A DNA stretch of 64,000 nucleotides from Pseudonocardia sp. SCN 73-27 (lineage in GTDB: Bacteria; Actinomycetota; Actinomycetes; Mycobacteriales; Pseudonocardiaceae). Every line of letters begins with the position of its first letter. The stretch's first letter is position 1. The DNA lies in contig MEGH01000023.1 of NCBI GenBank assembly GCA_001725415.1, forward strand, positions 1 through 64,000, in the 5' to 3' direction. The notes beneath the pieces were generated by a model. It was given only the letters and a program-made list of their open reading frames with translations, made no database searches and was not told the origin of the DNA. A program made the position numbers and the translations under genes. Positions 56,249 to 59,169 of this stretch are shown piece by piece.

Positions 56249-56590
56249 ATGCACACGTTCATCGAGCTGTGGAAGCCGCGGCCCGCCTGGCTCGCGCTCG
56301 GCGCCGACGAGAGGCAGGCCTACCTCGACAAGGTCGGGCCCGCGATCGGCCAGCTGCTCGCCGCCGGCGTCGAGATCGTCGGCTGGGGCAGGATCGAGGA
56401 CGAGCCCGACGGGCACACCGGCACCGGCCACCGCTGGGTCGCGGTCTGGCGGATGCCGTCACCCGACGAGGTCACCCTGCTGCGCGACCTCGTCGCCGGG
56501 GCCGGCTGGTACGACTACTTCGAGCAGGTCAACGTCGTGTCAGAGCTCGCAGATCCGGAGGCGGCGCTGCGCGACCACGTGACGGTCTGA
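56249..56590 (+). CDS. small protein of unknown function (DUF6616-like)
   Basis: This 113-residue protein begins [47 protein letters not shown] and contains aromatic-rich strands [12 protein letters not shown] and [14 protein letters not shown]. It resembles a family of small ferredoxin-like-fold proteins (DUF6616 is my best guess) of unknown role. GGGAGG eight bases before the ATG is a clear ribosome site, so it is not leaderless. It is convergent with the DUF2249 gene and divergent from ftsK. Confidence 0.7.
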
Positions 56591-56647: not shown

Positions 56648-57262
56648 TCAGCGCGCGGGCCGAGGCGGCGCCGGGTCGAGCACGAGTGCCTCCCGCCGCC
56701 GGTGCACGGTGAGGTAGCGCAGGCCGTCGGGGCCCGCGTCGAAGGCCCGTCGCGACCGCCGGGGCAGCCACAGCAGCGCGCCGGCGTGCAGCTCGACCGT
56801 CCCGGTCTCGGTGGTGACCGTCCCGGTCCCGTCGAGGACGGCGAGGAGGACGTCGAGGTCGGGGCCTCGATGGGTGTCGATGCGTCCGCCCGCGCGCAGC
56901 CGCACGACGTTGGAGTCCAGGTCCCGCTCGCGCATCCGCAGCGCCCACTCGACACCGGCGGCGTTCCGGGTGTCCTCGGCGTCGCGGGCCGGGCCGGCCG
57001 GGGACACGTCGCCCACGATGCGGGGCAGCGAGGTCTCCGCGAGCCGCTCGATGCGCACCCGCCACTCGGGGCCGCGTTCGAGGTACTCCCAACCGAAGCT
57101 GCCGGCATGGTCGGTCTCGAACTCGTCGCGCAGGTGCCTGGGGTCGTGGTTGTTGACGAGGACGAACGACTCGCCCACGGCCAGTTCGTCGAACGCACGG
57201 AAGATCGTCGGGTGCTTGTCGGGCTTGCGCAGGGGCCGGACGTCGAGCTCGATGAGAGGCAT
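56648..57262 (-). CDS. DUF2249-cupin fusion protein
   Basis: This 204-residue protein joins a DUF2249 domain (residues 1-75: MPLIELDVRPLRKPDKHPTIFRAFDELAVGESFVLVNNHDPRHL, then FGWEYLERGPEWRVRIER) to a cupin domain (about 110-195, with GGRIDTHRGPDLDVLLAVLDGTGTV and GALLWLPRRSRRAF). DUF2249 proteins often accompany nitric-oxide or redox genes, and the cupin half would bind a metal or small ligand. The -10 TATAAA (57274-57269 on the minus strand) is exactly six bases before the ATG, so the transcript is leaderless and overlaps the operator shared with the divergent regulator. Confidence 0.82.
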   Translation of the reverse strand: MPLIELDVRPLRKPDKHPTIFRAFDELAVGESFVLVNNHDPRHLRDEFETDHAGSFGWEYLERGPEWRVRIERLAETSLPRIVGDVSPAGPARDAEDTRNAAGVEWALRMRERDLDSNVVRLRAGGRIDTHRGPDLDVLLAVLDGTGTVTTETGTVELHAGALLWLPRRSRRAFDAGPDGLRYLTVHRRREALVLDPAPPRPAR

Positions 57263-57268
57263 GCCGGG

Positions 57269-57293
57269 TTTATACAACCGAGCGTTGTGTAAA
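57269..57293. promoter_or_regulatory. divergent operator between DUF2249-cupin and HTH regulator
   Basis: Ten-base arms TTTATACAAC (57269-57278) and GTTGTGTAAA (57284-57293), with one mismatch and a 5-base centre. The outer parts of the arms coincide with both divergent -10 elements (TATAAA leftward, TAAAAT at 57290-57295 rightward). A protein bound here would cover both promoters. The adjacent HTH protein is the obvious candidate. Confidence 0.8.
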
Positions 57294-57301
57294 ATCGAGC
57301 C

Positions 57302-57346
57302 ATGGCGATCCGGATCGCATCCGACGGCCCCTCCGCCGCGCCGTGA
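57302..57346 (+). CDS. 14-codon leader ORF overlapping the HTH regulator start
   Basis: ATG at 57302, six bases after the -10 TAAAAT, opens a 14-codon ORF (MAIRIASDGPSAAP) whose TGA (57344-57346) overlaps the GTG start of the regulator (57343-57345) in the GTGA manner. The regulator has no obvious ribosome site of its own, so its translation would depend on ribosomes that finish this leader. The peptide may have no function beyond coupling. Confidence 0.55.
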   Translation: MAIRIASDGPSAAP

Positions 57347-58005
57347 GCGGGCGTCGCGGCGAGGTCTTCGAGCTGCTGCGTGCCGCCGGGACGCCCCTCG
57401 GTGTCGCCGACATCGCGCAGCGCCTCGACGTGCACCCCAACACCGTCCGCTTCCATCTCGACGCCCTCGCCGCCGACGGCCGTGCCGAGCGTGTCGCCGC
57501 CCCTCCCACGGGCCCCGGCCGCCCACCCCTCGCCTACCGGGCCCGCCCCGGCATGGACCCCACCGGCCCCCGCAACTACCCGCTGCTCGCCGGTGCCCTC
57601 GCCGGCGCCGTCGCCGCGGGACCCGACCCGGTCGCGACCGCGACCGAGGCCGGTCGCCGCTGGGGCGCGCAGCTCGTCCCCGGCACACCGCACCCGCCCA
57701 CCGACAGCGGCTCGGCTGGACCCGCCGGCTCCGTCTCGGCGCTCGTCGCGGTGCTCGACGACGCCGGGTTCGCCCCCCGCTGGCCCTCCCCGCTCGCCGA
57801 CGACGCGATCGGCCTGCGGCACTGCCCGTTCCTCGAGGTCGTGCACGACGCCGCCGACGTCGTCTGCTCCCTGCACCTCGGTCTCATGCGCGGGGTGGCC
57901 GCGGCGCTGGACGTGCCCGTCGCCGTGGAGCGGCTCGAACCGTTCGCCGCCCCCGACGAGTGCCTCGCACACCTGTCGTTCTCACACCGGAAGGACCTGG
58001 CCTGA
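57343..58005 (+). CDS. HTH transcriptional regulator with cysteine-containing C-terminal domain (SufR/ArsR-like)
   Basis: This 220-residue protein has an N-terminal winged helix (1-65) with FELLRAAGTPLGVADIAQRLDVHPNTVRFHLDALAADGRAERV. A C-terminal domain follows with Cys161, Cys175 and Cys207, each near a His (160, 178, 210), in the sequence LRHCPFLEVVHDAADVVCSLHLGLMRGV. The pattern resembles iron-sulfur-binding regulators of the SufR type, though the spacing (13 and 31) differs from SufR. It probably senses redox state, NO or iron-sulfur status and binds the inverted repeat at 57269-57293. Its stop overlaps the next ATG (TGATG). Confidence 0.82.
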   Translation: MSGRRGEVFELLRAAGTPLGVADIAQRLDVHPNTVRFHLDALAADGRAERVAAPPTGPGRPPLAYRARPGMDPTGPRNYPLLAGALAGAVAAGPDPVATATEAGRRWGAQLVPGTPHPPTDSGSAGPAGSVSALVAVLDDAGFAPRWPSPLADDAIGLRHCPFLEVVHDAADVVCSLHLGLMRGVAAALDVPVAVERLEPFAAPDECLAHLSFSHRKDLA

Positions 58006-58436
58006 TGCCCGCAGCACCGGCCGTCGCCGTCGCCCTCACCTTCGTCTGGCTCGGGATGGTGCTGGCCATCTCGTTCCTCGAGGCACCGCTCAAGTTCCGG
58101 GCGCCCGACGTCACGATCAGGATCGGGCTGGGCATCGGGAGACTGGTCTTCACGGCGCTCAACGCCGTCGAGACGGTCCTGGCCGCCGGCTTGGTCGTCA
58201 CCGCGGTGATCGTCGCGCCTCCGACCACGGCCGCTGTCGCCGGAGCGGTCGCCGTGGCGGTGCTGCTGATCCAGCTCGCCGCGGTCCGGCCGCGGCTCAC
58301 CCGCAGGTCGAACGCCGTGCTCGCCGGCGCCGGGTCCGACGCACCCCGCTCCCACGCGCACCTCGTCTACGTGGCGTTCGAGATCGTCAAGGTCGCGGCG
58401 CTCGTCGTCGCCGGCGTCGCGCTGCTGGCGGGCTGA
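58005..58436 (+). CDS. four-helix integral membrane protein
   Basis: This 143-residue protein has four hydrophobic helices (about 5-25, 47-70, 72-92 and 122-141). Its conserved-looking features are FVWLGMVLAISFLEAPLKFRAP after the first helix, the Glu in ALNAVETVLAAG and SHAHLVYVAFEIVKV in the last helix. It resembles small TMEM205/DUF4149-like proteins in layout, but I am not certain. It starts within the stop of the regulator (TGATG), and a cupin gene follows six bases after its stop. A decayed near-duplicate lies at 58788-59133. Confidence 0.75.
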   Translation: MPAAPAVAVALTFVWLGMVLAISFLEAPLKFRAPDVTIRIGLGIGRLVFTALNAVETVLAAGLVVTAVIVAPPTTAAVAGAVAVAVLLIQLAAVRPRLTRRSNAVLAGAGSDAPRSHAHLVYVAFEIVKVAALVVAGVALLAG

Positions 58437-58441
58437 TCCCT

Positions 58442-58783
58442 GTGGCCGCCGACCCGATCTCCCTCGACGTCCTCGCCGACGAGCAGCTCGCCGCGGCGCG
58501 CCGCGCGTCCGCGGGCCGCAGCGCCCGCACCGTCCACGGTGGCAGCGACGCCACACTGCGGCAGACGCTGCTCGCCATCGCCGCGGGCCACGGCCTCGCC
58601 GAGCACGGCAACCCCGGCGAGGCGACGCTGCTCGTGCTGCGCGGCCGCATCGAGCTCGGCACGAGCGGCGGGCCGGTCACCGGGGTCGCCGGCGACCTGC
58701 TCGTCATCCCGCCGGAGCAGCACGACCTGCGGGCCGTCGAGGACTCCGCGGTCCTGCTGACGACCGTCGCCCGCCCAGGCTGA
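58442..58783 (+). CDS. cupin domain protein
   Basis: This 113-residue single-domain cupin shows GHGLAEHGNPGEATLLVLRGRIELG (motif 1) and GDLLVIPPEQHDLRAVEDSAVLLTTVA (motif 2), with two His and a Glu able to bind a metal. The GTG at 58442 lies six bases after the stop of the membrane-protein gene. It is the third gene of a small operon led by the HTH regulator. Together with the cupin half of the divergent DUF2249 protein it suggests two sensors or scavengers of the same stress. Reaction unknown. Confidence 0.8.
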   Translation: MAADPISLDVLADEQLAAARRASAGRSARTVHGGSDATLRQTLLAIAAGHGLAEHGNPGEATLLVLRGRIELGTSGGPVTGVAGDLLVIPPEQHDLRAVEDSAVLLTTVARPG

Positions 58784-58787
58784 CCGT

Positions 58788-59133
58788 CAGGCTGAAGTTC
58801 CGGGCGCCCGACGTCACGGTCAAGATCGGGCTGGGCATCGGGCGGCTGGTGTTCAAGGCGCTCAACGCCGTCGAGACGCTGCTGGCGATCGGGCTCGTGG
58901 TGACCGCCGTTGTCGTGGCGCCGCCGACCCTCGCCGCCGTCGCCGGAGCGGTGGCCGTGGCTGTGCTGCTCGTGCAGTTGGGCGCGGTCCGGCCACTGCT
59001 GACGCGCCGGTCGAACGCAGCGCTCGCAGGCTCCGACGCGCCCCGCTCCCACGCGCACCTCGTCTATGTCGCACTGGAGGTCGTGAAGGTGGCGGCGCTC
59101 GTCGTCGCCGGAGTTGCACTGCTTGGGTCGTGA
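58788..59133 (+). pseudogene. truncated duplicate of the four-helix membrane protein
   Basis: From about 58792 the sequence encodes LKFRAPDVTVKIGLGIGRLVFKALNAVETLLAIG and continues to the TGA at 59131-59133, matching residues 29-143 of the protein at 58005-58436 with moderate divergence and a two-residue gap. The first helix and any start codon are missing; the junction follows the cupin stop directly. A GTG at 58849 could start a shorter product with two or three helices. It is a partial tandem duplication whose 5' end was lost or never copied. Confidence 0.8.
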
Positions 59134-59169
59134 GCGGCAATAGTCGCCCCAGCGACCATTGCCGCTCAG
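59130..59169. repeat. repeat family C, copy C3
   Basis: Left arm GTGAGCGGCAATAGTCGC (59130-59147) and right arm GCGACCATTGCCGCTCAG (59152-59169) with two mismatches and a 4-base loop. The TGA of the preceding frame (59131-59133) is inside the left arm, the same position as in C2. It lies between convergent genes. Confidence 0.8.

Follow-up and report, generated by a model that had tools for sequence, protein, structure and literature searches.

A DUF2249-cupin gene module of Pseudonocardia with an ArnR-type regulator and a possible link to nitric oxide

What does a compact set of cupin, regulator and membrane-protein genes sense in an actinobacterium, and what might its products do? The question is raised by a locus in a 64,000-nucleotide stretch of Pseudonocardia sp. 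SCN 73-27 (contig MEGH01000023.1, positions 1 to 64,000; here called the window), on contig C23 of the 6.95-Mb genome that we analyzed. Four genes are arranged around one divergent operator, a 25-bp inverted repeat at 57269..57293. The minus strand carries the gene for a 204-residue DUF2249-cupin protein (56648..57262), and the plus strand carries genes for a 220-residue helix-turn-helix (HTH) regulator with a GTG start (57343..58005), a 143-residue four-helix membrane protein (58005..58436) and a 113-residue small cupin, also with a GTG start (58442..58783). An earlier sequence-only reading had proposed this arrangement, which can be read directly in the DNA; the span it gave for the module, 57262..58783, is too short, because the body of the DUF2249 gene falls outside it. 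On balance, we favor the explanation that the regulator is an ArnR-type repressor that would respond to nitric oxide (NO) and control a compact regulon of DUF2249-cupin, membrane-protein and cupin genes. The gene set, the operator, their conservation, the cysteine and histidine pattern and the family context are features that can be read from sequence. We propose NO as the signal because of the genes found around other members of the regulator family and because of the parallel with ArnR of Corynebacterium glutamicum, and the iron-sulfur cluster and the repression are likewise putative.

To look for the same gene set in other actinobacteria, as the sequence-only reading had suggested, we scanned reference genomes with the DUF2249-cupin protein. 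The scan yielded 39 loci (L032 to L070), all from Actinomycetota: 21 from Mycobacterium, 4 from Pseudonocardia and 14 from other genera, including Nocardioides, Saccharopolyspora, Spongiactinospora, Nonomuraea, Nocardiopsis, Aeromicrobium, Flexivirga, Amycolatopsis and Antrihabitans. The genes are kept together rather than dispersed. Within 6 kb, the regulator was found at 37 of the 39 loci, the ferredoxin FdxA at 29 (counting one beside a regulator paralogue in L065 and an eroded one in L060), the small cupin at 26 by open reading frame (ORF) and at 29 by tblastn, the membrane protein at 24 and a nitronate-monooxygenase (NMO)-like gene at 20. Upstream of the DUF2249 gene, the palindrome TTTACACAA-N6/7-TTGTnnAAA was matched at 14 or more of 18 positions in 37 of the 39 loci, the exceptions being L045 and L047, compared with 2 of 3900 sequences resampled from a first-order Markov model; the consensus was derived from the scored sites, so that scores lean to it, and resampled and control sequences were scored identically. 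Among 200 genomes of the order, 28 matched the DUF2249-cupin protein or half of it, and in 19 of those 28 the regulator lay no more than about 6 kb away on that contig. With these results, we conclude that the gene set is a conserved unit in several actinobacterial genera. In L137 and L138 (genomes G136 and G074), a DUF2249-cupin gene adjoins FdxA, and 13-14 kb of sequence contained neither a regulator match nor an operator site.

The operator in the window reads TTTATACAAC-CGAGC-GTTGTGTAAA, and its arms agree at 9 of 10 positions. Allowing up to three mismatches, the pattern occurs once in the whole genome and the reversed pattern not at all. A 24-bp pattern with up to two mismatches gave 9 sites across 19 genomes, compared with 1 for its reversed control. 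Two -10 elements were assigned by eye: a minus-strand TATAAA within the operator (57269..57274), 6 nt ahead of the DUF2249 ATG on the 57262 side, and a plus-strand TAAAAT over the right arm (57290..57295), 6 nt ahead of an ATG at 57302. A scan for sigma-70 consensus promoters found none. If the elements assigned by eye are right, the two divergent messages would be leaderless, and a dimer bound at the operator, which overlaps both elements, would close off both promoters. In 31 of the 39 relatives, the regulator side has its first start codon 8-9 nt from the palindrome. Two palindrome spacings occur in L032 to L070: 24 bp, mainly in mycobacteria and also in L032, and 25 bp, in the window and in most other genera. 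For a dimer, such a shift by one base should make a difference.

The regulator matches the Pfam family HTH_20 at 29.1 bits, above the cut-off of 27. As the sequence-only reading had noticed, it contains exactly three cysteines, each near a histidine, in the pattern C161-x13-C175-x2-H178-x28-C207. The three cysteines and H178 are invariant in two alignments of 28 sequences; H210 is present in at least 90% of sequences in one of the two alignments only, and the histidine preceding C161 is variable. In a tree of 52 family members, the window's regulator groups with 30 others (SH-aLRT 97, from a quick method with no bootstrap), the L047 regulator falls outside this group, and the nearest named relatives come from Pseudonocardia. 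When compared with hhalign, the profile of the 28 sequences gave a full-length match (probability 99.6, E 1e-24) to the L158 regulator, whose gene is flanked by narG and narK-like genes. A sequence search of solved structures gave no significant relative of the C-terminal part. A second family member in the same genome (L072, C29:16188-16766) is 38-41% identical and keeps the three cysteines and the histidine; within three mismatches, the genome holds no module-type operator other than the window's.

The closest described system is ArnR. In its published description, ArnR is a dimeric repressor with one [4Fe-4S] cluster per subunit that binds DNA tightly, is released from DNA by NO, and has a cluster that is only slowly degraded by O2 (PMC12343034). 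That description also gives it an N-terminal winged HTH and three conserved C-terminal cysteines with a conserved histidine nearby, as in the module's regulator; the cysteines of ArnR (Cys179, Cys193 and Cys223) are spaced by 14 and 30 residues (PMC12343034), those of Mycobacterium tuberculosis SufR (C203, C216 and C244) by 13 and 28 (PMC6034842), and those of the module's regulator by 14 and 32. The targets described for ArnR, narKGHJI and hmp, differ from the apparent targets here, which are the DUF2249-cupin, membrane-protein and cupin genes and, in relatives, FdxA. A further difference is that most regulators of the module form one group in the tree. We conclude from the sequence features that the regulator belongs with ArnR-type regulators, ArnR being compared by its described cysteine positions rather than by alignment, and that it is a relative of ArnR and not ArnR itself. 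By analogy, it probably carries a [4Fe-4S] cluster. The sequence-only reading could match the locus to no described system; the regulator proves to be of a known kind, and for the regulon we likewise found no description in the open PMC literature, subscription papers lying outside the search.

The context of the regulator family provides the link to NO. We picked by hand 20 family members at other loci from 74 matches, avoiding DUF2249-cupin loci (two of the 20, L145 and L148, still carry FdxA, regulator and membrane protein in a row), and used as controls 20 regions at hand-picked round coordinates on the same contigs. Both sets were searched with nitrogen-oxide, NO and respiration proteins, and representative families were checked with Pfam and NCBIfam. 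A nitrogen-oxide, NO, DUF2249 or haem-copper gene lay nearby at 16 of the 20 context loci and at 0 of the 20 controls, in which one NMO match was left uncounted. The neighbors were NarG (L140, L147, L150, L151 and L158), Hmp-like proteins (L139, L145 and L149), NirK-like proteins (L141, L150 and L154), NorB with DUF2249 (L142), hemerythrin-DUF2249 (L150 and L155), DUF2249 (L157) and aa3-type oxidase (L145, L146 and L148, with an edge fragment in L153); L143, L144, L152 and L156 held none of the respiration or NO genes searched for. The family thus adjoins nar and Hmp-like genes, which correspond to the targets of ArnR. In L145, genes for aa3 oxidase, FdxA, the regulator, the membrane protein and an Hmp-like protein follow one another, with no operator of the module type, and in L149 an Rrf2 gene stands beside the Hmp-like gene. 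NarG of L147 and an aa3 subunit of L128 pass the NCBIfam cut-offs.

Operator-like sites, scored at 13 or more of 18 positions, were present at 4 of the 20 context loci (L142, L143, L146 and L149) and 0 of the 20 controls; the same scan found none in L139, L140, L145, L147, L151 or L158. Because such sites are few, distant family members probably use diverged sites. A larger comparison, of 15 sites in 340 kb with 0 in 181 kb of controls, is biased because L127 to L138 were chosen largely for an operator or a DUF2249 gene, and only the figures for the 20 context loci (4) and the 20 controls (0) make a fair comparison. L127 and L128 have the operator flanked by the FdxA-regulator genes on one side and an aa3 oxidase gene (COX1) on the other, and L129 has it ahead of a hemerythrin gene that shares the regulator's strand.

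The Rv2619c-Rv2622 region of M. tuberculosis is a presumed gene-by-gene equivalent of the module, with Rv2621c as the presumed orthologue of its regulator. In published work, Rv2621c is termed ArnR-like (PMC12343034), and Rv2620c-Rv2622 is a locus for a transmembrane protein, a regulator and a methylase (PMC10470581). Rv2621c is elevated on the first day of exposure to nitrite (PMC6593118), is given as 2.59 in a study of csoR in which dosR is up as well (PMC4801387) and is induced in a non-culturable state (PMC4221891), and Rv2620c-Rv2622 is lower in a copper/aldehyde study (PMC10470581). As a set, these data are mixed.

We propose the following model. A regulator dimer with intact clusters would sit on the 25-bp palindrome and shut off two divergent leaderless transcripts, one for the DUF2249-cupin protein and the other for the regulator, the membrane protein and the cupin (plus FdxA in relatives). 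NO would nitrosylate the clusters, the regulator would leave the DNA, and the whole set would be switched on, the regulator included, which would amount to negative feedback. Once made, the products might shield respiratory and metal centers that are sensitive to NO, or restore them. In this model, the module links DUF2249 to constant partners and to a defined operator and assigns it a probable signal, and it suggests that in many actinobacteria ArnR-type control by NO is not confined to nitrate respiration and also covers a compact regulon. The same operator also precedes aa3-oxidase or hemerythrin genes in some genomes.

Several observations weigh against NO as the signal or against the breadth of the module. 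Six of the context loci supplied query proteins; when they are left out, 10 of 14 remain, one of which is an oxidase fragment 3.8 kb away. The Hmp-like (L139), NirK-like (L141) and NarK-like (L158) proteins fall below the NCBIfam cut-offs. Around the module itself, the window showed no gene connected with NO or nitrogen oxides, and no module-type operator within three mismatches stands at the genome's Hmp-like match. ArnR-like control of narKGHJI and hmp was accordingly not seen, as the genome has no second operator at that threshold, narG not having been searched for there. The last cysteine gap is two residues longer than in ArnR, 21 of the 39 conserved loci come from Mycobacterium alone, and the ferredoxin found in most relatives is missing from the window, from L032 and from others. 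With up to three mismatches, the 25-bp pattern gave 9 sites in 12 genomes and its reversed control also gave 9, so isolated operator sites elsewhere are weak evidence. Iron genes occur near family members as well: Fur adjoins the regulator in L060, FeoB lies past it in L142, and IucA/IucC is near it in L132. The reversed-pattern controls and these iron genes slightly lower our confidence in the favored explanation and slightly raise it for an account based on iron.

The iron genes also raise the possibility that the regulator resembles SufR in sensing iron or iron-sulfur status, in which case it would control an iron-sulfur repair set and would not be specific for NO. SufR, as published, shares the HTH, three C-terminal cysteines and autoregulation, and its operator CAAC-N6-GTTG, a further point against our explanation, is close to the window's CAAC-N5-GTTG (PMC6034842, PMC8593673, PMC11995493); FdxA belongs to the operon in most relatives. 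We consider this account unlikely. The regulator itself was rejected as SufR: the SufR model TIGR02702, which is cyanobacterial, scored 14.4 bits against a cut-off of 178.8 and matched the HTH part only, and the genome has its own SufR as a separate gene beside sufB (L073), to which the regulator is 29% identical over part of its length and which has a different cysteine motif, C-x12-C. SufR belongs to the suf operon and the module's regulator does not; Pfam found no suf gene among the module genes, suf genes not having been searched for around the other loci, and members of the family are found near nar, nor, Hmp-like and oxidase genes. The sequence-only reading had proposed nitrosative or iron-sulfur stress. 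Nitrosative stress fits the family context and the parallel with ArnR, and a role in iron-sulfur supply is less likely because of the separate SufR at sufB, despite the few iron genes near family members.

The oxidase neighbors could instead point to a sensor of oxygen or of the respiratory chain, one that adjusts the expression of terminal oxidases and for which NO is incidental. The aa3-type oxidase subunit I is a frequent neighbor (L127, L128, L134, L145, L146 and L148) and is the operator's divergent partner in L127 and L128, and hemerythrins lie nearby in L051, L129 and L134. We regard this as quite improbable, since NarG, NorB, NirK-like and Hmp-like neighbors are found too, and since the slow degradation of the ArnR cluster by O2, as reported, argues against oxygen. 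The Cys-Cys-His-Cys set could also bind a single ion of copper or zinc, and such a sensor would fit the tables in which Rv2621c changes in copper-related experiments (PMC10470581, PMC4801387) and the presence of some zinc in ArnR preparations (PMC12343034). FeoB in L142 was all that was met of this kind among the loci, metal transporters not having been searched for. The copper-experiment tables hold many other genes, Rv2621c is only a presumed orthologue, and a metal sensor seems to us highly improbable. An ArnR-type, NO-responsive repressor thus remains the explanation that we favor.

What the effectors do is the least certain part of this explanation. DUF2249 (PF10006) is clear in the divergent gene product (E=3.4e-27, 94.5 bits against a cut-off of 29.5), and H17, H39 and H43 of this domain are invariant in 24 sequences. 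Of the two cupins named by the sequence-only reading, the fused one matches Cupin_2 weakly, at 23.0 bits, below the gathering value of 27.2, and the small cupin is barely above its cut-off at 28.3 bits. At the His/Glu metal ligands of the two cupin motifs, the fused cupin keeps H131 and D137 and has no histidine in motif 2. In the small cupin, H55 and H94 are invariant and E60 is nearly so in 16 sequences, and these residues may form a metal site. DUF2249 and cupin also occur apart, with matches to the DUF2249 half only in L064 to L069 and to the cupin half only in L016 and L019, which suggests that the two share a task. A sequence search of solved structures found no significant relative of the DUF2249 part, and relatives of the cupin only. 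The membrane protein matched no Pfam family; its hydropathy profile shows three stretches, and since the middle one could hold two helices, the four helices of the sequence-only reading fit, and its ATG overlaps the regulator's stop codon by one base. Weak similarity to DUF4149 was seen in 12 of 17 members of the membrane-protein family. The DUF4149/DUF2269-like proteins of L045, L051 and L057 were rejected as counterparts after a profile comparison gave nothing (probability 0.1).

Published work ties DUF2249 to nitrogen-oxide respiration. During denitrification in haloarchaea, DUF2249 genes are induced (PMC11218638), and DrpA and DrpB tune nitrate respiration in Thermus and are proposed as nitrate sensors (PMC6282519). 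The latter source, which counts about 3,500 DUF2249 proteins, differs from our case in involving other regulators, and its available text mentions no cupin fusion (PMC6282519). In the open PMC literature, we found nothing on DUF2249 combined with cupin, and DUF2249 alone is almost without literature there, two papers naming it. We tentatively raise the possibility that the DUF2249-cupin protein, FdxA, the four-helix protein and the small cupin make up a new effector system that would scavenge NO or repair nitrosylated iron-sulfur and haem-copper centers. Such a system would have an ArnR-type sensor of its own, would be common among actinobacteria and would work independently of Hmp and NsrR.

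The module had been described as self-contained, a view that the missing ferredoxin does not bear out. In most relatives, the ferredoxin is the first gene past the operator; in L038 it is FdxA_Actino by NCBIfam (178.7 bits against a cut-off of 125), it matches ferredoxins with solved structures, 7Fe ones included, and in L033 and L038 its stop overlaps the regulator's GTG. Comparison of the window with these relatives showed a 14-codon mini-ORF (57302..57346, plus strand), passed over by the sequence-only reading, that begins at the ferredoxin start position and finishes in the same GTGA overlap, its TGA overlapping the regulator's GTG. Because both its start position and this overlap match those of the ferredoxin, we infer that the mini-ORF is probably the remnant of a ferredoxin deletion. 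Eight FdxA-like matches lie elsewhere in the genome.

A second feature that had gone unremarked is a 5'-truncated second copy of the membrane-protein gene (58791..59133, plus strand). It is 82-86% identical to the first copy in DNA and lacks the first helix. A dN/dS of about 0.17 between the two copies indicates that both diverged mostly under constraint, as though a second module had been acquired by recombination. Directly past it, and ahead of a convergent amidase-like gene, a 17-bp inverted repeat at 59131..59168 makes a strong hairpin (z -3.76, without a T run) and is a possible transcription end. On the other side of the module lies a DUF6616 gene (56249-56590), which was unmatched in the other loci compared with it.

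Operator-like sites were also seen away from the module. A second near-perfect operator, with 1 mismatch, lies far from the module in L130 (4865-4889, genome G108), upstream of a gene for a hydrophobic protein without a Pfam family. A site with 2 mismatches lies about 20 nt ahead of a large gene without a Pfam match in L096 (1501-1524, genome G200). Further operator-like sites occur in L081 and, beside an enolase-like gene named by eye, in L095, and in L094 an operator precedes cupin and NMO genes.

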